This document shows, in pieces, positions 18,497 to 30,471 of a stretch of DNA of 32,205 nt. This DNA comes from an uncultured Clostridia bacterium (GTDB taxonomy: Bacteria > Bacillota > Peptococcia > Peptococcales > Peptococcaceae). The notes under the pieces were generated by a model. It did not search any database, was not told the origin of the DNA, and saw only the letters and a program-made list of their open reading frames with translations. The position numbers and the translations under genes are program-made. Position 1 is the first letter of the stretch, and every line of letters begins with the position of its first letter. The stretch spans positions 1-32,205 of the forward strand of contig CALXSY010000020.1 in the NCBI GenBank assembly GCA_944391285.1, written 5' to 3'.

Positions 18497-18643
18497 AGCG
18501 AATAAGGGCAAGAACAATACTCTTAGCAGCCGTAAGTGAAAGCTGCCCAAGGTTTGAAAAAGTGCTGTGCATATAGTTTAGGTTAAAAAATGTATCTGCA
18601 AGCATTAGCCAAAAGGTAGAAAGATCTGCGATATAGCGCCTGC

Positions 18644-18679
18644 AAAAAAGATGCCGCCAAACAAAGCGGCATCTTTTTT
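18644..18679. terminator. Strong bidirectional terminator
   Basis: A6 plus GATGCCGC (18644-18657) pairs perfectly with GCGGCATC plus T6 (18666-18679), with an 8-nt loop. It ends the three-gene unit upstream and would also stop minus-strand RNA from 18680-18840. Confidence 0.93.
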
Positions 18680-18891
18680 TGCTGTTGGTGGCAAAAGCAT
18701 AATGAAGAAGGTTACAAAAAAATCGTCGTGCAGGCAAATTATTTATTGTTTGGCAATATTGCTGAATTTGCTGATCCTCAAGAGCTTAGCTGGCATAATG
18801 TTCTTAATCTGCACTTAAAGCTTAATCCTTCTTTTACAATCAACATAGCAAGAATAAAAAATATTGTCAACAGTATTAACACAAACAATAT
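18680..18891. other. Segment between two terminators: possible small RNA or peptide locus
   Basis: About 210 bp lie between the terminators at 18644 and 18892. On the plus strand there is a 60-codon frame from GTG 18728 without a ribosome binding site. On the minus strand an open frame (from about 18908 to 18780) encodes a very hydrophobic stretch, LVPAFILFVLILLTIFFILA, followed by a basic tail, also without a ribosome binding site. Inside it a minus-strand promoter-like pair, TTGACA (18870-18865) and TATGTT (18847-18842) with 17-bp spacing, could start an RNA of about 170-190 nt that ends at 18644. None of this is firm. Confidence 0.35.
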
Positions 18892-18929
18892 AAAAGCAGG
18901 CACCAATTAATTTTGGTGACTGCTTTTTT
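18892..18929 (+). terminator. Intrinsic terminator upstream of the LytTR-type promoter
   Basis: AAAAGCAG (18892-18899) and CACCAA (18901-18906) pair with TTGGTG (18913-18918) and CTGCTTTT (18920-18927), with one G-A mismatch and a 6-nt loop, followed by more T. Its 3' arm overlaps the left half of the direct repeat at 18913-18942. Confidence 0.85.
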
Positions 18930-18942
18930 GCCGTTGGTTACA
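18913..18942 (+). promoter_or_regulatory. LytTR-type direct repeat upstream of the 19026 operon
   Basis: TTGGTGACT (18913-18921) and TTGGTTACA (18934-18942), 7 of 9 identical, with a 12-bp spacer and a 21-bp period. LytTR response regulators bind such paired 9-bp direct repeats two helical turns apart. The right half ends exactly 6 bp before the -35 at 18949. The same arrangement occurs at 25388-25417. Confidence 0.65.
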
Positions 18943-18948
18943 AGAATA

Positions 18949-18977
18949 TTGACAATATTAGGCACAAAAGGTATAAT
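18949..18977 (+). promoter_or_regulatory. Consensus promoter of the stalk-protein operon
   Basis: TTGACA (18949-18954), a 17-bp spacer and TATAAT (18972-18977), a perfect sigma-A match. It would drive the gene at 19026 and, with no terminator seen between the following genes, probably transcription through to the kinase at 25312. Confidence 0.9.
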
Positions 18978-19025
18978 TAAAATGAGGGTAATTATAATTC
19001 GCTGCTGAAAGGAACGTGGTCGGAT

Positions 19026-19592
19026 ATGGAGAAAATAATCCAGCGCAATACCTTTAAACCAACCGAAGATGAAGATTTTTGTGCTTATTTAAGGGATAGG
19101 GTCCAAGAAGGCTGGCAAATTTGCAAATTTAACCCTTGGTTTATAACCTTTAAAAAAGGTGAAAAAACAGATAAATATTATATTATCCTTTGCAATACTG
19201 GTCTAACAACAGAAAAAGAGCATCTTAGTAAATATCAAGCCTTAGGTTTAGAGCTGGTTGCCTCCTGTGGGGACAGATATCTTTTTTCTGCCGATACACC
19301 CTTTAGCGCCGAGTTAAAGAGAGATGCTCAAAGCAAACTGAAAAAATTTTGTTTTTCTAATGTATGGACGCAGTATGCGTTGCTTTTTCCGGTAATTATG
19401 CCGATAGGGAAAATAATATATTATGAAATAGTCTATAGGGAGTTTTATAGCTTTTTTGCCAAAACTAAGAACTGTGTCTTGATGGCAATTGTCTTAGCGC
19501 TGTTTGCAGGACTTTTAGTGCATAACATAAGAGAAACAAAAAGATATCTGAAACTAAAACGGAGCATCATGCAGTTAGAAGAGGTGGAATAA
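19026..19592 (+). CDS. DUF2812-like membrane protein
   Basis: A 188-residue protein with a soluble N-terminal domain (about 1-110) and two C-terminal membrane segments (about 118-135 and 150-170), ending in a charged helix. The N-terminal part has the DUF2812 look: FCAYLRDRVQEGWQICKFNP, FKKGEKTDKYYIILC, YQALGLELVASCGDRYLF. In Bacillota such proteins often accompany small regulators or exported proteins, but no molecular function is known. A GAAAGGAA site lies upstream, a little far from the ATG. It is the first gene behind the consensus promoter and the LytTR-type repeat, and its stop is only 3 bp from the next gene, so the two are co-expressed. Confidence 0.7.
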   Translation: MEKIIQRNTFKPTEDEDFCAYLRDRVQEGWQICKFNPWFITFKKGEKTDKYYIILCNTGLTTEKEHLSKYQALGLELVASCGDRYLFSADTPFSAELKRDAQSKLKKFCFSNVWTQYALLFPVIMPIGKIIYYEIVYREFYSFFAKTKNCVLMAIVLALFAGLLVHNIRETKRYLKLKRSIMQLEEVE

Positions 19593-19595
19593 GGA

Positions 19596-20555
19596 ATGAA
19601 AAAATTAAAAATATTCTCGGCAGTTTTGCTTTTAAGCCTGTCTTTAGCACAAGTATCGGCAGCGGCGGCAAATGAGCAAGAGGAAATCAGCTTCTTTTTA
19701 AACGGCAGTTATTTAGCGTGTGAGATTGCCCCGATAATTGAGCAGGGAGAAATATTGGTTCCGCTAAGAAGCATAGGCGAAGCACTGGATGCAGGGATAT
19801 ACTGGGATGGGCAAACTAAAACAGCGTCCTTGAAATCAAGCGGCTGGCGGGGAGAGCGCGAATTAAAATTCCAAAGCGGCAGCAAGACCGCCGCAATAAA
19901 CGGCGAAAAGATAACTTTGGCTGTGCCGATGCAAATAGTAAACGGACGCACTATGGTTCCAGCCTCAGCCATTGCGGAAGGTTTGGATTTAGCCGTAACT
20001 TGGGACGAAAAAACGCAAAGCTTAAGCCTGCAAGAACGCTACCGCTCTCAAAACGGCGCTGCAGAAATAGTTTTAACTCCGATAAAGGCTGATAAAGACA
20101 GCAGTTATATGATTTATCATGGCATGCAGGTTGAAATAAACGGGGAGAAATATGAATATGCTTGGGAGTGGAATGCCGGTGTTTGGCAATATATCGCCTA
20201 TAATCCGCCGGAGATTTATTGGGCAGATCTGAATGCTGACGGCAGGGAAGAAATCATTATTCGCTTAGTGGATGGCATAAACACGGGAACGGGAGTTTCT
20301 TTGGAAAAAGTGCATGTGCTCAAGCCAAACGGAGAGGAAATAGCGGTGCAGGATGCCGGTGAATATGCCGCCAATTTAGCTAAAGAAAAAGACGGGATTT
20401 CTGTCGGTGCTTGGGTAAGCTATGAAGTGACAGACGGAGAGTTAACAGCGGAAGTGACGGTTTATGAAAAGGAGGAGCCAAAAGTTTGGCTGTTAAAATA
20501 CGGCAATGCACACGGCAAACTGCAAGTGGTGCAGGCAGAGAGGGTGAATTATTAA
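19596..20555 (+). CDS. Exported copper-amine-oxidase-N-like (stalk domain) protein
   Basis: A 319-residue exported protein. The signal peptide is MKKLKIFSAVLLLSLSLAQV with cleavage probably after VSAAA. A copper amine oxidase N-terminal-like (stalk) domain follows at about residues 32-145, with both halves of the repeat: LVPLRSIGEALDAGIYWDG and MVPASAIAEGLDLAVTWDEK. Despite the name this domain binds no copper and serves as an extracellular stalk or binding module in Clostridia. Residues 150-319 are a beta-rich region with an Asp-rich loop (WADLNADGREEIIIRL) that resembles FG-GAP/integrin-type calcium loops. It follows the DUF2812-like gene by 3 bp and has a GAGGTGGAATAAGG ribosome-binding region. 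Its role is probably at the cell surface. Ligand unknown. Confidence 0.85.
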   Translation: MKKLKIFSAVLLLSLSLAQVSAAAANEQEEISFFLNGSYLACEIAPIIEQGEILVPLRSIGEALDAGIYWDGQTKTASLKSSGWRGERELKFQSGSKTAAINGEKITLAVPMQIVNGRTMVPASAIAEGLDLAVTWDEKTQSLSLQERYRSQNGAAEIVLTPIKADKDSSYMIYHGMQVEINGEKYEYAWEWNAGVWQYIAYNPPEIYWADLNADGREEIIIRLVDGINTGTGVSLEKVHVLKPNGEEIAVQDAGEYAANLAKEKDGISVGAWVSYEVTDGELTAEVTVYEKEEPKVWLLKYGNAHGKLQVVQAERVNY

Positions 20556-20641
20556 AAATTTTCTCACTTTCTTAAGCCGCAGAGAGCAAAATGCATAAAA
20601 GAGGAACGTGAAAACAAAGGCAATGACAAGGGGGAGCAAAA

Positions 20642-22177
20642 ATGAAAAAATTATTGAAAAAACTTACTGCAACTTGCTTCTTGGGAATATTTCTTTTGAG
20701 CTCAGTTCCCGTTTGGGCAAGTGTGCGCTTTGAGCCTATTGATCTGGACATTTATAGCCTTGGCGGATACGGCGAAGGCAAAATTTCCTTTGACATAATG
20801 GTAGGCGAACCCATTTATACCGCCATGTCGCCTGAAGGCGCTATCAGCACTGTTTCTGGGTTTATGGATACCAACGGCGAAGTCTTGATTGAACCTAAAT
20901 ATTCATATGCTTGGGAATTTTTTCAAGGCTATGCAAGAGTAGGTGAAGACATAACGGAATATTACGGCGGCGGAGAAAATGGTCGTACTATTCACTATCT
21001 AATCAACGAACAGGGACAAAGAGTGGAGTCGACTGTTTTGCTGGACAGTAAAGGTCTGTATGAGAGAGGATACAAAGATAGGCAAATTCTGTGGGTGAAG
21101 CCTCGCAGCCAATATGAGGATGTCAGATATGGTATGACCGATTTTGCGGGAAATTGGCTATTCCCTTTTGAGTTTGAAGATCTGCACTTGCCCAGTGAGG
21201 GCTATTACTTGGCAAAGCAAAATGGCAAGTACGGCTATATCCGCGCTGAGGAGGGCAAGGAGAGCTTGGAGCTCATCTATGAAGATGCCCAAGATTTTGC
21301 CTTAGGCTTAGCCTGCGTTAAATATAATGGTTTATGGGGGTATATAGATTATAATGGTGACTGGCAGATAGAGCCCCAATATTTAGAAGCTCAGAGCTTC
21401 AGCGAAGATGTGGCTGCGGTGAAAACGGCTTCCGGCTGGGGCGTAATCAATAAGGATAATGAAATAATTATCCCATGCATCTATGAAGAAATATCCCCCT
21501 GCCAAGAAGGGCGCATGGCAGTAAAATTAAAGGGCAAATGGGGCTATTTTGATAAAACGGGCGAAAAGGTGATAGATTTTAAATATGTTGAGGCACGAAA
21601 CTTTTCTGAGCAGTTAGCCATAGTGAGCACTGATTCCCAGCTCCAGTACAAACGAAAATATCAGCTTATCAACCAATGGGGCGAGCAGGTCTTGCCGCAG
21701 GAATATATAAATATTGTGCTCATTGATGAAACCAAAGGAGCACTCCAAAGAGCCAGCGACCGCAAGGCATTCTTTTACTATTTAGAGAACGAAATGGCAG
21801 AGGAACCAGAGGCAAGAGATTTTATCCGGCTATATTTAAACGGCAAATACGTAGCAGGCGATGTGGATCCCGTTATTTGGGGTGAGCATTGTTATCTGCC
21901 CTTGAGAAGCTTAGGTGAAGCATTGGGTGCAGAGATAGACTGGGATGCGGATCAAAGCATAGCTTACTTCAATTTGGGCGAAAACTCCGTTGAGCTTCTT
22001 CTTTATCGTAATGTTGCTTATATTAACGGACAAAGGATAGAACTGGATCTGGGAAATGATCCTTTCACAAATAATGGCAGAACAATGGTGCCGGTCAGAT
22101 TAATCAGCGAAGCGTTAAACTTTGATGTCCAGTGGAATGCTGAGGAGCAAGCAATTTATTTAACCGGCAAGGAGTGA
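20642..22177 (+). CDS. Exported WG-repeat protein with C-terminal stalk domain
   Basis: A 511-residue exported protein with signal peptide MKKLLKKLTATCFLGIFLLS and cleavage near VWASV. The middle (about residues 70-350) consists of WG beta-propeller-like repeats: FMDTNGEVLIEPKYSYAWEF, GLWGYIDYNGDWQIEPQYLE, SGWGVINKDNEIIIPCIYEE and GKWGYFDKTGEKVIDFKYVE. The C-terminal 115 residues are a copper-amine-oxidase-like stalk domain with LPLRSLGEALGAEIDWDADQ and MVPVRLISEALNFDVQWNAE. WG repeats are thought to mediate protein or glycan binding. The ribosome binding site is AAGGGGGAG. It lies in the same operon as the stalk protein upstream (86 bp) and the double-repeat protein downstream (6 bp). Confidence 0.88.
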   Translation: MKKLLKKLTATCFLGIFLLSSVPVWASVRFEPIDLDIYSLGGYGEGKISFDIMVGEPIYTAMSPEGAISTVSGFMDTNGEVLIEPKYSYAWEFFQGYARVGEDITEYYGGGENGRTIHYLINEQGQRVESTVLLDSKGLYERGYKDRQILWVKPRSQYEDVRYGMTDFAGNWLFPFEFEDLHLPSEGYYLAKQNGKYGYIRAEEGKESLELIYEDAQDFALGLACVKYNGLWGYIDYNGDWQIEPQYLEAQSFSEDVAAVKTASGWGVINKDNEIIIPCIYEEISPCQEGRMAVKLKGKWGYFDKTGEKVIDFKYVEARNFSEQLAIVSTDSQLQYKRKYQLINQWGEQVLPQEYINIVLIDETKGALQRASDRKAFFYYLENEMAEEPEARDFIRLYLNGKYVAGDVDPVIWGEHCYLPLRSLGEALGAEIDWDADQSIAYFNLGENSVELLLYRNVAYINGQRIELDLGNDPFTNNGRTMVPVRLISEALNFDVQWNAEEQAIYLTGKE

Positions 22178-22183
22178 TAAAAA

Positions 22184-23212
22184 ATGAGAACATTAAAGAA
22201 AATGCTGAGTGTGCTTTTGCTGTTGTCTTTAAGTCAAATCCCCATTCCTGCTTGGGGAGCTGAAAACTGCACGGTGACCTTGCCGGAGTTTAAGGTAACT
22301 ATCAATGGAGAAGAATTCGACAATTCTTACAGCAAATATCCCCTTTTGCTGTATAAGGATATCACTTATTTCCCCTTAACCTATTATGATTGCCGTCTCT
22401 TAGGTGTCAGCACGGCTTATGACCAGCAAAATGGTTTAGCCTTAATAAAAGATGACAGCGGCTACAGTGAATATTTAAGAGAACTAACCTCGCAGAAAAA
22501 TGCCAAACAACAAACAGCCCAAATAGCACAAGGACCAATCACCATCGGCGGACAGAGGATTGATAATGCTGAGGAAGACTATCCCTTTTTACTGTTTCGC
22601 AATGTAACCTATATGCCACTTACCTGGAAATATGCCGCTATCGAGTTTGGCTGGCAGTACAGCTTTGATTTAACCAATGGCTTGGTTATTACCGGCGAAG
22701 CAGAGCCGGTAGCGGCTGAACCAGAACTTCATTTTGTTGATTATCCGTCTATCATGGGTGATAATGGTTCTTGGCGTTTTGTTCTCCATGCTCTACAGCC
22801 TGGAGAATATACCCATCATCTTACCGGCGATTATAATTCCGACCTGGACAGATGGGGTATTTCCTTTTATAATTTCCAAGAAGCAGTCTATCTTCATCCC
22901 ATAGATCCTTTGGAATATCGGATTTATCGTAAAATTAACGGTGAGGAACACTTGGTATATAAAAAGAGTATGAGCTTATACAGCGGTGAAGTGCCCAGTA
23001 TATTTGTTGTGCATCATCACTTAAACATACCATATTGGGATAGTGAGTATGTTAAAGAGGGGAAATATATGGTGCGGATAACCTATCCGGATAATTTTAT
23101 TTATAGCGAGCAGGGATCAGATGAAATATTGTTAACACCGTTTAATCAGGATTTTGCTGATAACAATTACCTTTACTTTAATTTTGAAGCGCCGGTAAAA
23201 GTCGTGAAGTAA
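22184..23212 (+). CDS. Exported protein with two YPLLLYKDITYFPLT-type repeats
   Basis: A 342-residue exported protein with signal peptide MRTLKKMLSVLLLLSLSQIP ending at PAWGA. Two divergent stalk-like repeats follow: KYPLLLYKDITYFPLTYYD (about residues 50-68) and DYPFLLFRNVTYMPLTWKY (about 127-145), each preceded by a VTINGEEFDNS or ITIGGQRIDNA strand. The C-terminal half (about 180-342) is beta-rich and unknown to me, with many aromatic residues. It is a clear paralogue of the protein at 25510. The start is 6 bp after the WG-repeat gene, with a weak AAGGAG-like site inside that gene's end. It precedes the LytTR regulator by 40 bp, so signalling genes and surface proteins share a transcript. 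Confidence 0.85.
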   Translation: MRTLKKMLSVLLLLSLSQIPIPAWGAENCTVTLPEFKVTINGEEFDNSYSKYPLLLYKDITYFPLTYYDCRLLGVSTAYDQQNGLALIKDDSGYSEYLRELTSQKNAKQQTAQIAQGPITIGGQRIDNAEEDYPFLLFRNVTYMPLTWKYAAIEFGWQYSFDLTNGLVITGEAEPVAAEPELHFVDYPSIMGDNGSWRFVLHALQPGEYTHHLTGDYNSDLDRWGISFYNFQEAVYLHPIDPLEYRIYRKINGEEHLVYKKSMSLYSGEVPSIFVVHHHLNIPYWDSEYVKEGKYMVRITYPDNFIYSEQGSDEILLTPFNQDFADNNYLYFNFEAPVKVVK

Positions 23213-23252
23213 AAGAGACAAAAGGCTAAATATTTCCATAAAAAGGAGAAAA

Positions 23253-23987
23253 ATGATGAGGATAGCAGTTTGTGACGATGAGCAAAATGAGTTGGAGATA
23301 ATGCAGAATTTATTTAATAATTATCCGCAAGCCATGGCTGAATGGCAGATAGTTTATTTTACCGCCGGCAAAGAATTATTGGAGGATAAAACAGGCTTTG
23401 ATATAATATTTTTAGATATCGAGCTGACTGACAGCAATGGGGTGGAAGTGGCGGCAAAAATCAAAACAGCATATCCGCTGAGCCAAATTATCTTTATTTC
23501 CAATTATCCCAAATATGTAACTCAATCTTACTATATCGATACTTTTCAGTTTTTGATAAAGCCTTTGACCCAGGAGATCTTTGATTGTGAACTGACCCGC
23601 TGTCTGGAGAAAGTAAAACGAGGCGCCAAAATAATTATTCGTAAAACTAAAGAAGGCAAAGTGACTTTAAAGAAAGCGGATATAGTGTATTTGGAAGCGC
23701 AAAGACGAGTTTTAACGGTGTATTTGCGCGATGGCAGCAGTTATCAATATTACGGCAGGCTGGCAGATGAAGCAGAGGAACTGGGAAATGAGGAGTTTGT
23801 GCGCTGTCACAAGAGCTTTATCGTCAATCTGGAGTTTGTGCTGAGTTTTGATTATAAAAATATCGTGCTCAGCCTTAAAGCAGACGGCAGTAAAAACAGC
23901 ACTTTGAGCGGCAATATCAGTATTCCGATCGGCGGAGCGTATTACAAAAACTTTAAAGAGGAGATGCTCAAGTTTTTAGCATTTTAA
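23253..23987 (+). CDS. LytTR-family response regulator (AgrA/ComE type)
   Basis: A 244-residue response regulator. The receiver domain (about residues 1-120) has the acidic pocket CDDEQ (Asp8, Asp9), phosphoacceptor Asp55 in IIFLDIELTDSNG, the Ser/Thr in IIFISN and the Lys in FLIKPL. The LytTR DNA-binding domain (about 135-240) shows VTLKKADIVYLEAQRRVLTV and FVRCHKSFIVNLEFV. Tandem ATG codons start the gene; AAGGAG fits either. Such regulators bind pairs of 9-bp direct repeats with 12-13 bp between, and exactly such repeats occur at 18913-18942 and 25388-25417. The partner kinase gene follows by 25 bp but is broken. No agrB/agrD-like peptide gene was found nearby. Confidence 0.93.
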   Translation: MMRIAVCDDEQNELEIMQNLFNNYPQAMAEWQIVYFTAGKELLEDKTGFDIIFLDIELTDSNGVEVAAKIKTAYPLSQIIFISNYPKYVTQSYYIDTFQFLIKPLTQEIFDCELTRCLEKVKRGAKIIIRKTKEGKVTLKKADIVYLEAQRRVLTVYLRDGSSYQYYGRLADEAEELGNEEFVRCHKSFIVNLEFVLSFDYKNIVLSLKADGSKNSTLSGNISIPIGGAYYKNFKEEMLKFLAF

Positions 23988-24012
23988 AAAACAGATTGCA
24001 GAGGTAGGTATT

Positions 24013-25312
24013 ATGGATCAAGTAAGTGTCAATATTTTCAGTGCCTTTTTCGAATATTTTTGTCTGTGGCTGTTCTTTTACTGGGTTTTTGGCAGAAAAG
24101 AAAGTATTTCCAAGAAATATTATTGGTCGGTCAATTTGTTAATGCCTGTTTATTGTTTCTTTTTATCATCATATGTGGCAAACTTTACTTTGCGCAGTAT
24201 TCTTTATGTGCTTTCGATTATTTTACCGGCAACAATGTTTAACGGCAAAATGCGCAATAAATTATCCTTTGGCGTAATTTATTTGGTTATCCAAATGATT
24301 TGCGAAATGTTAGTGTCGATGATTTTGCTTAAAGTCCATCAAGTGACAGTCATACCTTTTGCGGCGGAGGTTTATGCCGTGGGGGTAGTTTATGTGAGAA
24401 TTTTATGCTTGTTTGTGACCGTCATAATGGCGGCGGTTTTAGCCCGCAAAAATTTGTTTGCTTTTACGGCAGATAAAACCCAATTAGCGCTTTTGCTTTT
24501 TATTCCTTTGGTGAGTATTTTCGTTATTTATATCCTTATGGACAATTTGCTAAAGCTGGAGCATTAGGGCTATTACCGCACTATAGCGGCGATTATCGGC
24601 ATACTTTTGGCGAATGGAGCTTTGTTTTATGTGCACAATGAGATCAACAAGCAGGCATTGCTAAAACGGCAGCTCAGCGAGCTTAACGCCATCCAAAAAA
24701 TGCAGGAAGAAAACTTGCTGAACTTAGAGGATAAAAATAAGGAAAATCGTCAGCTTTTACATGATGTGAAACATTATTTTCTGATTTTAAAGGGATATAT
24801 CCTCAATGAGGAAAAGCAAAAGGGGCTTGATTATATTGACGGTTTGTTGGAAGAGATAGAAGAAAAGCATTTTACATTGACCGGCAACGGCATCATTGAC
24901 ACCTTGCTTTCCTTTAAGAGCATGCAGGCGAAAAAGAAAGGTATAGTAATTCATTATTCTGTTTTTTTTAGCGGAAACAAATGTTGCCGCAACAGATATT
25001 GCCTTGATTTTAGCCAATGCTTTGGACAATGCCATTGAAGCCACTGCCAAGATAACTGATGAAGCGCGAAAAAGCATCAGACTTTCTTTGTTAAACAGAG
25101 GCAATCATTTGAAGATAGAAGTGGTTAATCCCATCTCTAAGCCCTTAAACTTAAAAAATAATACCCTGCAATCTACCAAATTCGATAAAACCGCTCACGG
25201 CTTCGGCTTAAAAAATATTCAAAGCCTTGCGCAAAAAAATAACGGTGAAATGTTCATTTCCTGTGCCGGTCAAGAGTTTAAACTTACGGTTATTTTAACA
25301 AATAAAAAATAA
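24013..25312 (+). pseudogene. AgrC-type sensor histidine kinase, broken by amber codon and frameshift
   Basis: The gene spans 1300 nt. An N-terminal membrane domain of five or six segments (24013-24564) ends at an in-frame TAG at 24565-24567. The same frame continues with one more membrane segment, a coiled coil and the phosphoacceptor region RQLLHDVKHYFLILKGY. A one-base shift follows at a run of eight T (24962-24969): with seven T the frame would continue as VFLAETNVAATDIALILANA, through the N-box LANALDNAIEA and the G-box GFGLKNI, to the stop at 25312. Removing one T gives 432 codons plus stop, the normal AgrC length. Two lesions suggest decay. Readthrough plus slippage, or phase variation at T8, cannot be excluded. 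It would otherwise signal to the LytTR regulator. Confidence 0.85.
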
Positions 25313-25387
25313 GAAAGTTGCGGCGGGAAAAATACCGGCACTGTTAAGAGAAGGCTTAGCAGTACCTTTTTTGGAAGACGAGGTCAT

Positions 25388-25417
25388 TGGTTACATAATG
25401 CAGGTTATTGGTTACAC
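25388..25417 (+). promoter_or_regulatory. LytTR-type direct repeat upstream of the 25510 gene
   Basis: TTGGTTACA occurs at 25388-25396 and again at 25409-25417, with a 12-bp spacer and 21-bp period. The identity extends upstream: 14 of 15 bases match between 25382-25396 and 25403-25417. The right copy ends 6 bp before the -35 at 25424, the same spacing as at 18942/18949. The likely ligand is the LytTR protein at 23253. Confidence 0.75.
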
Positions 25418-25423
25418 TTGTGT

Positions 25424-25451
25424 TGAGGAGAGAAATAATTTATGCTAAAAT
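25424..25451 (+). promoter_or_regulatory. Promoter of the 25510 gene
   Basis: TTGAGG (25424-25429), a 16-bp spacer and TAAAAT (25446-25451) with an upstream TGC, giving the extended -10 TGCTAAAAT. It is weaker than the promoter at 18949, as expected for one that needs the upstream LytTR-type site. Confidence 0.6.
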
Positions 25452-25509: not shown

Positions 25510-26361
25510 ATGAAAAAATACCTTATGATAGTGGTGTTAGCCATCTTTTTGGCAGCAGGGGCAGCTGCTCCGGCTCAAGCAGCACAAAATGTGACCGTAA
25601 CGCTGCCGACTTTTTCCGTCACCTTAAATGGCTACCAGATGGTGCCGGAATATGATCAATATCCGCTAATTGTCTACAAGGACATCACCTATTTTCCCAT
25701 GACCTATCATTATGCCGGCTTTTTGGGCTTAGAGATAAATTGGGCAGATTACACCTTGAGTGTTAATAAAACAGACGCTACCAGCAAAAGATTGCGTTGG
25801 TATGAACAAACCGAGAAAAATAAGCTTTCCCAGACTGCCAGCCTTGCATCCTTTAATGTCGTGGTAAATGGTGAGGTAATTGATAACAGCAAAGAAAAAT
25901 ATCCCCTGCTTTTGTTCCGTGATGTTACTTATTTCCCTCTGACCTGGCGCTTTGCCGTAGATGAATTTGGCTGGGATTATACCTTTGATATGGAGCAAGG
26001 ATTACAAATTGCCAGCAAGCTGTTATTCGTCGAGGAAGATCAATATGTTATCGGTGGCAATTTAACGGTTGGTTTTCCTCATAGTACTTGGAATGAACAG
26101 TATAAATTCACCGTTTATCAAGACAGTGAAAAAGTAAAGACCTTTAGCGTAAAAGAAGATCTGGTGGGGAGCGGGGATTATTATTTTCATGAGCAAGCAG
26201 ATGAAAATGGTTTTATGCAAAACCCTCACACTGCCCGCATAGAAGGCAATATTTTATTTTTACCCTGCGTGCGGCAAGATAGCAATGCAGATAAAAAAAA
26301 TGTCCTGCTGGAAATAGATTTAGATCAAGGAAAGGTAGTCAATAAAACAAAAGTGGATTAA
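25510..26361 (+). CDS. Exported protein with two YPLLLFRDVTYFPLT-type repeats
   Basis: A 283-residue exported protein. The frame is open from 25408, but the ATG at 25510 follows AAGGAGGGTGGAG and starts the signal peptide MKKYLMIVVLAIFLAAGAAA (cleavage near AQAA). Two stalk-like repeats are clear: QYPLIVYKDITYFPMTYHY and KYPLLLFRDVTYFPLTWRF, the second followed by FGWDYTFDMEQGL. It is a paralogue of the protein at 22184, whose repeats have the same spacing and the same VTLPxFxVTxNG opening. The C-terminal 120 residues differ between the two. It has its own promoter with the LytTR-type direct repeat, so it is a predicted target of the regulator at 23253. No terminator with a long stem was seen after it. 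Confidence 0.87.
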   Translation: MKKYLMIVVLAIFLAAGAAAPAQAAQNVTVTLPTFSVTLNGYQMVPEYDQYPLIVYKDITYFPMTYHYAGFLGLEINWADYTLSVNKTDATSKRLRWYEQTEKNKLSQTASLASFNVVVNGEVIDNSKEKYPLLLFRDVTYFPLTWRFAVDEFGWDYTFDMEQGLQIASKLLFVEEDQYVIGGNLTVGFPHSTWNEQYKFTVYQDSEKVKTFSVKEDLVGSGDYYFHEQADENGFMQNPHTARIEGNILFLPCVRQDSNADKKNVLLEIDLDQGKVVNKTKVD

Positions 26362-26623: not shown

Positions 26624-27449
26624 ATGAATTCAGAAGTTTTTGCTACCCTCGCACCTACTAAGCTTTTCTGGCGCTGTGCTCTCCCTTCAATGATAACGAT
26701 GGTTTTCGGTGCTTTGTATCAGATTGCCGACGGTATTTTTGTCGGGCGCTTTATCGGCGAAGATGCTTTGGCGGCGGTCAATCTGATCATGCCGATCATT
26801 ATGATGGTCTTTGCTTTTTCCAATATGCTGGCGACCGGAGCGTCGGTGCGGATTGCGGTTTTTTTGGGCGAGAAAAAAAGAGCTGAGGCGGCGCAGGTTT
26901 TTTCTTTTATCCTTAAAACGATCTTTTTTGTTTCGCTTATTTTAGGACTAATCGGCTTTTTCTTTGCCGAAAGCTTTGTTCGGCTTCTCTCTCCGGGAGC
27001 AAGCGAGACGGCAATAAAATACGGCATAACATATATTAGAATATATGCCGTATTTTCGTCCCTTTTGCCTATCTATTTCGCGACCGACAACTTTCTTAGG
27101 CTCTGCGGCAAAGAAAAAGTGAGCATGTGGCTGGGAATTGGCACCCAGGGAATAAATATTATTTTGGATGCCATCCTCATCGCCGGCTTGGGGCAAGGTG
27201 TGTGGGCGGCAGCGTTTACCAGCTGCTTGGCAATCGTCTTAGGTTCTGTCATCAGCCTTTGGATGTTTCGGGGCAATTGTTTTTCCGTGCCTCTTTCTGG
27301 GGCTGCTGACACCCATCTGGCAGCTCAACGGAGTTTGGCTGACTGCGGTGGCGGCCAGCGCGGCAAGTGCCGTTTTAGCCGTATTTTTAGCCTTAACGCT
27401 GAAAATGAGCTTAAGGACGGGCAACGAAGCTTTAGTTTTTGGATATTGA
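26624..27449 (+). pseudogene. MATE-family efflux transporter with internal deletion
   Basis: Codons 1 to about 217 are a normal N-terminal half of a MATE (MepA/NorM-like) multidrug exporter, with MNSEVFATLAPTKLFWRCAL and SMITMVFGALYQIADGIFVG at the start. After WMFRG (about 27272) the reading frame becomes senseless. From 27273 the +1 frame reads AIVFPCLFLGLLTPIWQLNG, then VWLTAVAASAASAVLAVFLA, and stops at 27447-27449, which is the C-terminal end of the same family. About 58 codons remain there. MATE proteins have about 450 residues, so roughly 170 codons, probably membrane segments 7 to 10, are missing and the join is out of frame. The product should be non-functional. The ribosome binding site (AGGAGG) and upstream leader are intact. 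Confidence 0.85.
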
Positions 27450-27452
27450 CAA

Positions 27453-27486
27453 AAAAGAGGCTGCCTTTTGAAAGGCAGCCTCTTTT
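27453..27486. terminator. Strong terminator after the MATE pseudogene
   Basis: A perfect 16-bp stem, AAAAGAGGCTGCCTTT (27453-27468) with its complement at 27471-27486, and a 2-nt centre, effectively a 4-nt loop. It works in both directions. Confidence 0.93.
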
Positions 27487-27560
27487 AACAGATAGGGCGA
27501 CAGTTCCGATTTTTAAATAAGCTTTTTCAAAAAACGCCAAAGGGTAATAGAGGATATTAG

Positions 27561-29708: not shown

Positions 29709-29747
29709 ATTTTTGCGGCTTTGCTTTTGCTTTTGGCAAATTGATGA

Positions 29748-29753
29748 TATAAT
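29748..29753 (+). promoter_or_regulatory. -10 element of the two-component operon
   Basis: A perfect TATAAT lies 22 bp before the ATG at 29776. No good -35 is found at 16-18 bp, only T-rich TTTTGC at 29725-29730, so this promoter may need activation. Confidence 0.5.
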
Positions 29754-29775
29754 CAGGGTAAAGGGAGGTGCGGAG

Positions 29776-30471
29776 ATGGACGGAAAAAAGATATTATTTG
29801 CTGATGATGATCCTCAGATTAGAGAGGCTTTGAGTTTATTGCTGAATGCAGAAGGCTACGAAACTTTGGAAGCTTCCTGCGGCAAGGAAGTATTGGAGTT
29901 AATGGATCATACTGTGGATTTGGTAATTTTGGATGTGATGATGCCGGAGATGAGCGGCTATGCAGTTTGTGCCGAGCTGCGCAAGCGCTATACGGTGCCG
30001 ATTATGTTTCTGACGGCGAAATCTCAGGACTCGGACAAAACCTTGGGCTTTTCTTTAGGCGGCGATGATTATTTGGTCAAGCCCTTTTCCTATAATGAGC
30101 TGATCAACCGGGTTAAAGCCATTTTGCGGCGCTATTATGTCTATGGGGCAAAAACCGCTGAGCCCAATCAGGTTATTCATTGCTGCGGGAATATTGAAAT
30201 CGACACCAACCGTTCGACAGTCAAGGCAGACGGTAAGGAAGTTATTTTAACGGATATCGAATATCGGATTTTAGTGCTTTTGGCAACGCACCGGCAGCGG
30301 ATTTACTCAGCGCAAAACATTTACGAAATCATCTGGAATGAGCCCTATACTTATTCTTCGACCAACACAGTTATGGTTCATATCCGCAATATTCGCCGCA
30401 AATTAGGCGATGATTCGCAAAACAGCCACACTATTCGCACCGTCTGGGGAAAGGGGTATCGTATTGAATAA
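29776..30471 (+). CDS. OmpR/PhoB-family response regulator
   Basis: A 231-residue two-component regulator. The receiver domain has the acidic pair Asp11/Asp12 (FADDDP), phosphoacceptor Asp53 in LVILDVMMPEMSG, the conserved Thr in MFLTAKS, and Lys in YLVKPFS. The winged-helix domain (about 130-231) ends with MVHIRNIRRKLGDDS and IRTVWGKGYRIE. The frame is open from 29713, but the ATG at 29776 has GGGAGGTG upstream and a natural start MDGKKILFADDD. Its stop overlaps the kinase start by 8 nt. The style is that of regulators that sense cell-envelope stress or antimicrobial peptides (VanR-like). Divergent lipid genes are possible targets. Confidence 0.94.
   Translation: MDGKKILFADDDPQIREALSLLLNAEGYETLEASCGKEVLELMDHTVDLVILDVMMPEMSGYAVCAELRKRYTVPIMFLTAKSQDSDKTLGFSLGGDDYLVKPFSYNELINRVKAILRRYYVYGAKTAEPNQVIHCCGNIEIDTNRSTVKADGKEVILTDIEYRILVLLATHRQRIYSAQNIYEIIWNEPYTYSSTNTVMVHIRNIRRKLGDDSQNSHTIRTVWGKGYRIE

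Follow-up and report, generated by a model that had tools for sequence, protein, structure and literature searches.

Organisation of the locus

The window, as the whole stretch of DNA under analysis is called here, covers 32 205 nucleotides of contig C20 from an uncultured Clostridia bacterium of the Peptococcaceae with a genome of 1.70 Mb; a second contig of the same genome is referred to as C3. The features relevant to this study are as follows.

18691–18838, plus strand: decayed lipoprotein gene fragment, 89% identical at the DNA level to the gene that follows site 3 on C3
18892–18927, plus strand: hairpin of a strong intrinsic terminator (-18.7 kcal/mol, z -3.7); half-site 1 of site 1 lies within its 3' arm
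18913–18942, plus strand: site 1, TTGGTGACT-N12-TTGGTTACA, period 21, predicted LytTR operator
18949–18977, plus strand: perfect sigma-70 promoter, TTGACA-17-TATAAT, 6 bp after site 1
19026–19592, plus strand: DUF2812 membrane protein, first gene of the predicted operon
19596–20555, plus strand: exported protein with a Cu_amine_oxidN1 (stalk) domain
20642–22177, plus strand: exported protein with WG repeats and a Cu_amine_oxidN1 domain
22184–23212, plus strand: exported protein, with a double N-terminal module in common with the 25510 protein (45% over 165 aa)
23253–23987, plus strand: AgrA-type LytTR response regulator, receiver and LytTR domains intact
24013–25312, plus strand: AgrC-like histidine kinase gene, broken twice: a TAG codon interrupts the frame at 24565, and the frame shifts at a T8 run near 24967
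25387–25416, plus strand: site 2, TTGGTTACA-N12-TTGGTTACA, perfect direct repeat, period 21, predicted LytTR operator
25423–25451, plus strand: weak promoter, TTGAGG-17-TAAAAT, with an extended -10 TG, 6 bp after site 2
25510–26361, plus strand: exported double-module protein, behind site 2

The 25510 protein gave a confident all-beta AlphaFold model (pLDDT 88.8), and searches of the PDB with it, by sequence and by fold, returned no significant match. A full-length homologue (57%) is encoded about 2.5 kb from an agr locus (regulator, AgrC-like kinase and AgrB) in Peptococcaceae bacterium UBA7185, so that regulator and target are neighbours in two genera. The double N-terminal module (25510–26361; G000:C8:11600-12274; C2:118270; C2:120018) has no Pfam family and also occurs fused to an N-acetylmuramoyl-L-alanine amidase-like protein.

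Two further observations concern the genes of the window. A promoter-like TGGACA-17-TATAAT (22845–22873, 11/12) lies within the 22184 gene, some 400 bp ahead of the regulator, and could drive repeat-independent expression. In the MATE efflux gene at 26624–27520 the match to MATE models stops at about residue 218 of some 435 and unrelated sequence follows; the gene is likely a pseudogene.

Paired direct repeats upstream of two promoters

Two 9-bp direct repeats, 12 bp apart and directly upstream of a -35 hexamer, were found at both site 1 and site 2. The original prediction had placed them at 18913–18942 and 25388–25417 with a common 21-bp period, each ending 6 bp before a -35 hexamer at 18949 and 25424. 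The period, the 6-bp spacing and the coordinates of site 1 and its hexamer were all found as described, whereas the second repeat lies one base to the left, at 25387–25416, and its -35 at 25423. The second half-site of site 1 is identical to the half-site of site 2 and stands at the same 6-bp distance. When the window was scanned with up to three mismatches there were two matches against 0.02 expected in shuffles, a figure that is partly circular because the pattern was built from sites 1 and 2. The letters of TTGGTTACA fit poorly to the published LytTR consensus, which counts against the predicted operator reading.

Half-site 1 of sites 1 and 3 (site 3, on C3, is described below) falls inside the 3' arm of a strong terminator hairpin, and is thus also constrained as a terminator arm, which again counts against reading it as an operator. 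Site 4 has no strong hairpin. In two relatives (G008:C65 and G006:C39) a half-site also overlaps hairpin-like sequence, as judged by eye. The region 18860–18959 forms an imperfect inverted repeat with 47-nt arms, centred on the terminator and carrying TTGACAATATT at both outer ends, which creates a further promoter-like sequence at 18870 on the minus strand.

Distribution of the repeat in the genome

A strict pattern had two exact matches in the 1.70 Mb genome, namely sites 1 and 2; the third-best match, C3:21093, was rejected as a further site since it lies inside a pyrD-like gene. Through similarity of their spacers to those of the window sites, two more sites were reached on C3.

C3:65161-65200, minus strand: site 3, preceding a 353-aa lipoprotein gene
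C3:78828-78867, minus strand: site 4, between the gene of the genome's only other LytTR regulator and its divergent neighbour, 123 bp from the regulator gene

Site 4 heads a run of small exported proteins, the last of which is a full-length paralogue (46%) of the 25510 protein. A direct-repeat search upstream of this second regulator with default-type seeds reported none; site 4 is on the opposite strand, with a 7/9 match. The combined pattern, TTSGNDACW-N12-TTSRTKACA-N6-TTGA, scanned over the whole genome, found exactly four sites at zero mismatches and none at one or two, and at three mismatches the count equalled that of the reversed-pattern control. Wide occurrence of the repeat at unrelated places in the genome had been named in advance as an outcome that would refute the original proposal; it was not observed. 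When the 9-mer before the -35 was compared with the 9-mer 21 bp upstream, 7, 9, 7 and 7 of 9 letters agreed at the four sites; period 21 totals 30/36 letters, and no other period from 9 to 44 exceeded 16/36.

Site 1 shares 74% identity with site 3 over 88 bp, and the two may be paralogues rather than independent occurrences, a point that counts against the predicted operator reading. The stretch 18640–18838, which includes the lipoprotein gene fragment, is a remnant of a duplicated hairpin and lipoprotein gene from which the promoter and gene start have been deleted.

The claim of a small surface-protein regulon is supported as regards its exported targets, but not as regards its confinement to the window, for there are two more sites on C3, one of them beside a second LytTR regulator.

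A motif associated with LytTR genes across the Peptococcaceae

The strict TTGGTTACA pattern was uninformative in relatives, where its matches fell in coding repeats such as an RHS-type gene. A generalised motif, xTxRTKACA-N12-xTxRTKACA-N6-TTG, was sought in 13 genomes of the family (the present one and 12 other Peptococcaceae). Named matches assign the relatives to the Peptococcaceae; contig G009:C70, for one, corresponds to Peptococcaceae bacterium UBA7185. In the 12 others the motif is found both 50–140 bp upstream of LytTR/agrA-like genes and ahead of exported proteins encoded nearby. Each of the five exact matches among the 13 genomes has a LytTR gene at no more than 4.7 kb, and three stand 68–93 bp upstream of that gene on the same strand; at zero to one mismatch, 9 of 14 matches lie within 5 kb of a LytTR gene, a zone that makes up 1.7% of the sequence. 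Because the core xTxRTKACA was partly read off the LytTR loci of relatives, this enrichment is not fully blind or independent, which counts against it. The stronger part of the evidence is the peaks of period and gap, together with the sites found only later: the motif signal has its sole peak at period 21 with gap 6, and altering either abolishes it. A sequence-free, promoter-anchored scan of the relatives' LytTR loci likewise peaked at period 21, with 24 counts versus 0–7, a count inflated by overlapping registers.

In two relatives (G008 and G006) the regulator operons are preceded by GTTATGACA-N12-GTTATGACA-N6-TTGTAA. Further sites in relatives stand before exported proteins, a CHAP-like wall enzyme and a C39-like exported protein (named from their sequences), so that there too the targets are regulator operons and exported proteins. 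One locus (L127, G008:C86) has three tandem half-sites, AGTTATGAC[GA], at 21-bp steps upstream of its regulator, not two. In 1.14 Mb of LytTR-free DNA no match was found at up to one mismatch, and in 17 LytTR-bearing genomes of other families the matches equalled the reversed-pattern control, with none near a LytTR gene; given this background level, the operator form appears to be family-specific and restricted to the Peptococcaceae.

The regulator and its broken kinase

The gene at 23253–23987 had been predicted to encode a LytTR response regulator, which was borne out by matches to PF04397 (54.4 bits, cut-off 22.6, E 1.5e-14) and PF00072 (43.0 bits, cut-off 30.2, E 5.6e-11). Its frame is intact and the receiver residues are in place. 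Its best NCBIfam matches were all far under their cut-offs, and a scan of named genomes with the regulator alone found no relative; its nearest relatives within the family are 29–39% identical and their loci carry an AgrC-like kinase and AgrB. Near its C-terminus the protein carries Ala at a position that is Arg or Lys in most LytTR domains of the family, and this counts against the operator reading.

No intact AgrC-type kinase adjoins this regulator. The three fragments of the broken gene align in order to an intact paralogue on C3 (residues 17–110, 209–326 and 330–438), which adjoins the second LytTR regulator; the frameshift at the T run may be a sequencing error. An AgrC-like kinase beside a LytTR regulator in a relative (L083, 6129–7434 of G003:C105) is also split, into two overlapping frames, perhaps by an error of the metagenome assembly. 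The absence of agrB, originally noted for the window, extends to the whole genome, which encodes no AgrB, while 7 of 12 relatives in the family have one and relatives keep agrB beside the same regulator and kinase. With its partner kinase broken, the signal input of the regulator has probably been lost. Read from its genes, the circuit is a decayed agr-type system.

The repeats as predicted operators

We infer, with a probability of roughly 0.8, that the repeats are operators of the LytTR regulator encoded between them, or of that regulator together with its paralogue on C3, and that they serve to regulate its own operon and the 25510 gene in an agr-derived circuit whose kinase is broken and whose AgrB is gone. 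In more general terms, they are very probably binding sites of a quorum-sensing-type switch protein controlling secreted proteins in Peptococcaceae. The geometry, the rarity in the genome and the association with LytTR genes across the family all support the LytTR-type operators first predicted, and the placement of the motif, genome-wide and family-wide, supports the predicted targets, that is, the operon from 19026, which includes the regulator, and the 25510 gene. New with respect to the original prediction are the wider regulon, the broken kinase, the overlap with the terminator and the perfect consensus of the first promoter.

A regulator dimer would lie along one face of the DNA, its two half-sites exactly two helical turns apart, and, centred near -57 (counted from the -35) and ending 6 bp before the -35, would recruit RNA polymerase, acting as an activator rather than a repressor. 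Site 1 would serve the regulator's own operon and site 2 the exported protein at 25510, while sites 3 and 4 would act on exported proteins encoded beside the second LytTR regulator; either the window regulator or its C3 paralogue may be the binder. The window regulator would probably receive its input through cross-talk from the intact paralogous kinase on C3, or have residual, basal activity alone, and the probable role of site 1 is to boost an already strong promoter.

The promoters bear on this mechanism in two ways. Those of the relatives' regulator genes match TTGACA at only 3–4 of 6 positions, and a -35 this poor is what activation would lead one to expect. In this genome three of the four sites (1, 3 and 4) have a consensus -35; these promoters do not look activator-dependent, which counts against the activation model, and the one at 18949, a perfect consensus, may not depend on activation at all. 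Taken with the broken kinase, the consensus -35 at three of four sites suggests a partial or complete loss of signal dependence. It may even be that, after loss of signal maker and sensor, regulator and operators survived while three of four promoters moved to a consensus -35, leaving the exported proteins on without a signal and the operators folded into the terminators of upstream genes, although we put this forward only tentatively.

A different reading of these promoters is possible, if doubtful: that the operators are relics, the regulator being inactive after the loss of kinase and AgrB, the promoters constitutive, and the repeats persisting because the loss was recent or because they form part of a terminator. 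The broken kinase, the missing AgrB, the shift to a consensus -35 relative to the promoters of relatives, and the debris of neighbouring genes would all agree with this. Against it, the regulator has kept its frame and receiver residues, four promoters still carry undamaged half-sites, the genome has an intact paralogous kinase, and site 2 retains a weak -35 that would need help.

It is very unlikely that site 1 is no more than a terminator with a strong promoter behind it, resembling site 2 by chance. Half-site 1 does lie in the hairpin arm, and the decayed neighbouring copy has TTTTTTGCTGTTGGTGGCAA after its own hairpin without a promoter; however, the match of the second half to site 2 at the same 6-bp distance, the period of 21 at all four sites, including site 2 and the hairpin-poor site 4, and the same geometry in relatives speak for an operator. 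Proteins other than LytTR regulators also use direct repeats at two-turn spacing, and the window holds an OmpR-type regulator (29713–30471) with a kinase, but binding by that protein, or by a MerR- or SARP-like one using direct repeats, is very unlikely, since the motif tracks LytTR genes in relatives and the window scan found no site before the OmpR-type gene.

The LytTR operator reading thus provides a concrete, family-wide predicted operator for agr-type LytTR regulators of the Peptococcaceae, a family of gut and anaerobic bacteria for which no described agr regulon was found; in the open-access literature we found no paper on agr operators in the Peptococcaceae. It would allow the targets of the regulon to be read from sequence, and it presents a natural example of a quorum-sensing circuit left with regulator and operators after losing signal and sensor, raising the question of whether promoter strength compensates.

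Comparison with known systems

The LytTR sites of LRS systems are 9-bp direct repeats, usually 12 bp apart, 4–11 bp before the -35 of autoregulated operons (PMC6193735), and AgrA sites are centred near -60, with S. aureus operators accompanied by non-optimal promoter spacers (PMC4227749); the geometry of the window sites matches this published LytTR/AgrA architecture. The resemblance to LRS systems (HdrRM and BrsRM of Streptococcus mutans) extends to repeats of that spacing just upstream of the -35 and to autoregulation of the LytTR operon (PMC6193735). In contrast, LRS regulators lack a receiver domain and are paired with a membrane inhibitor, whereas the window regulator contains a receiver domain and is accompanied by a kinase gene, and so does not belong to the HdrRM/BrsRM type. 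With VirR, ComE, YpdB and BtsR it has in common a LytTR domain and two tandem half-sites, but differs in half-site sequences and targets.

The closest likeness is to agr (AgrA/AgrC/AgrB/AgrD) of Staphylococcus and clostridia. The window regulator is a LytTR-family response regulator of AgrA type followed by a gene for an AgrC-like GHKL kinase, the direct repeats stand just upstream of the promoters of its own operon and of exported targets, and relatives have agrB in the locus. Unlike agr, this genome has no AgrB and the kinase is broken; it also differs from S. aureus agr in its promoters, where spacers are 17 bp long and the -35 is mostly consensus, and in its half-site sequence.
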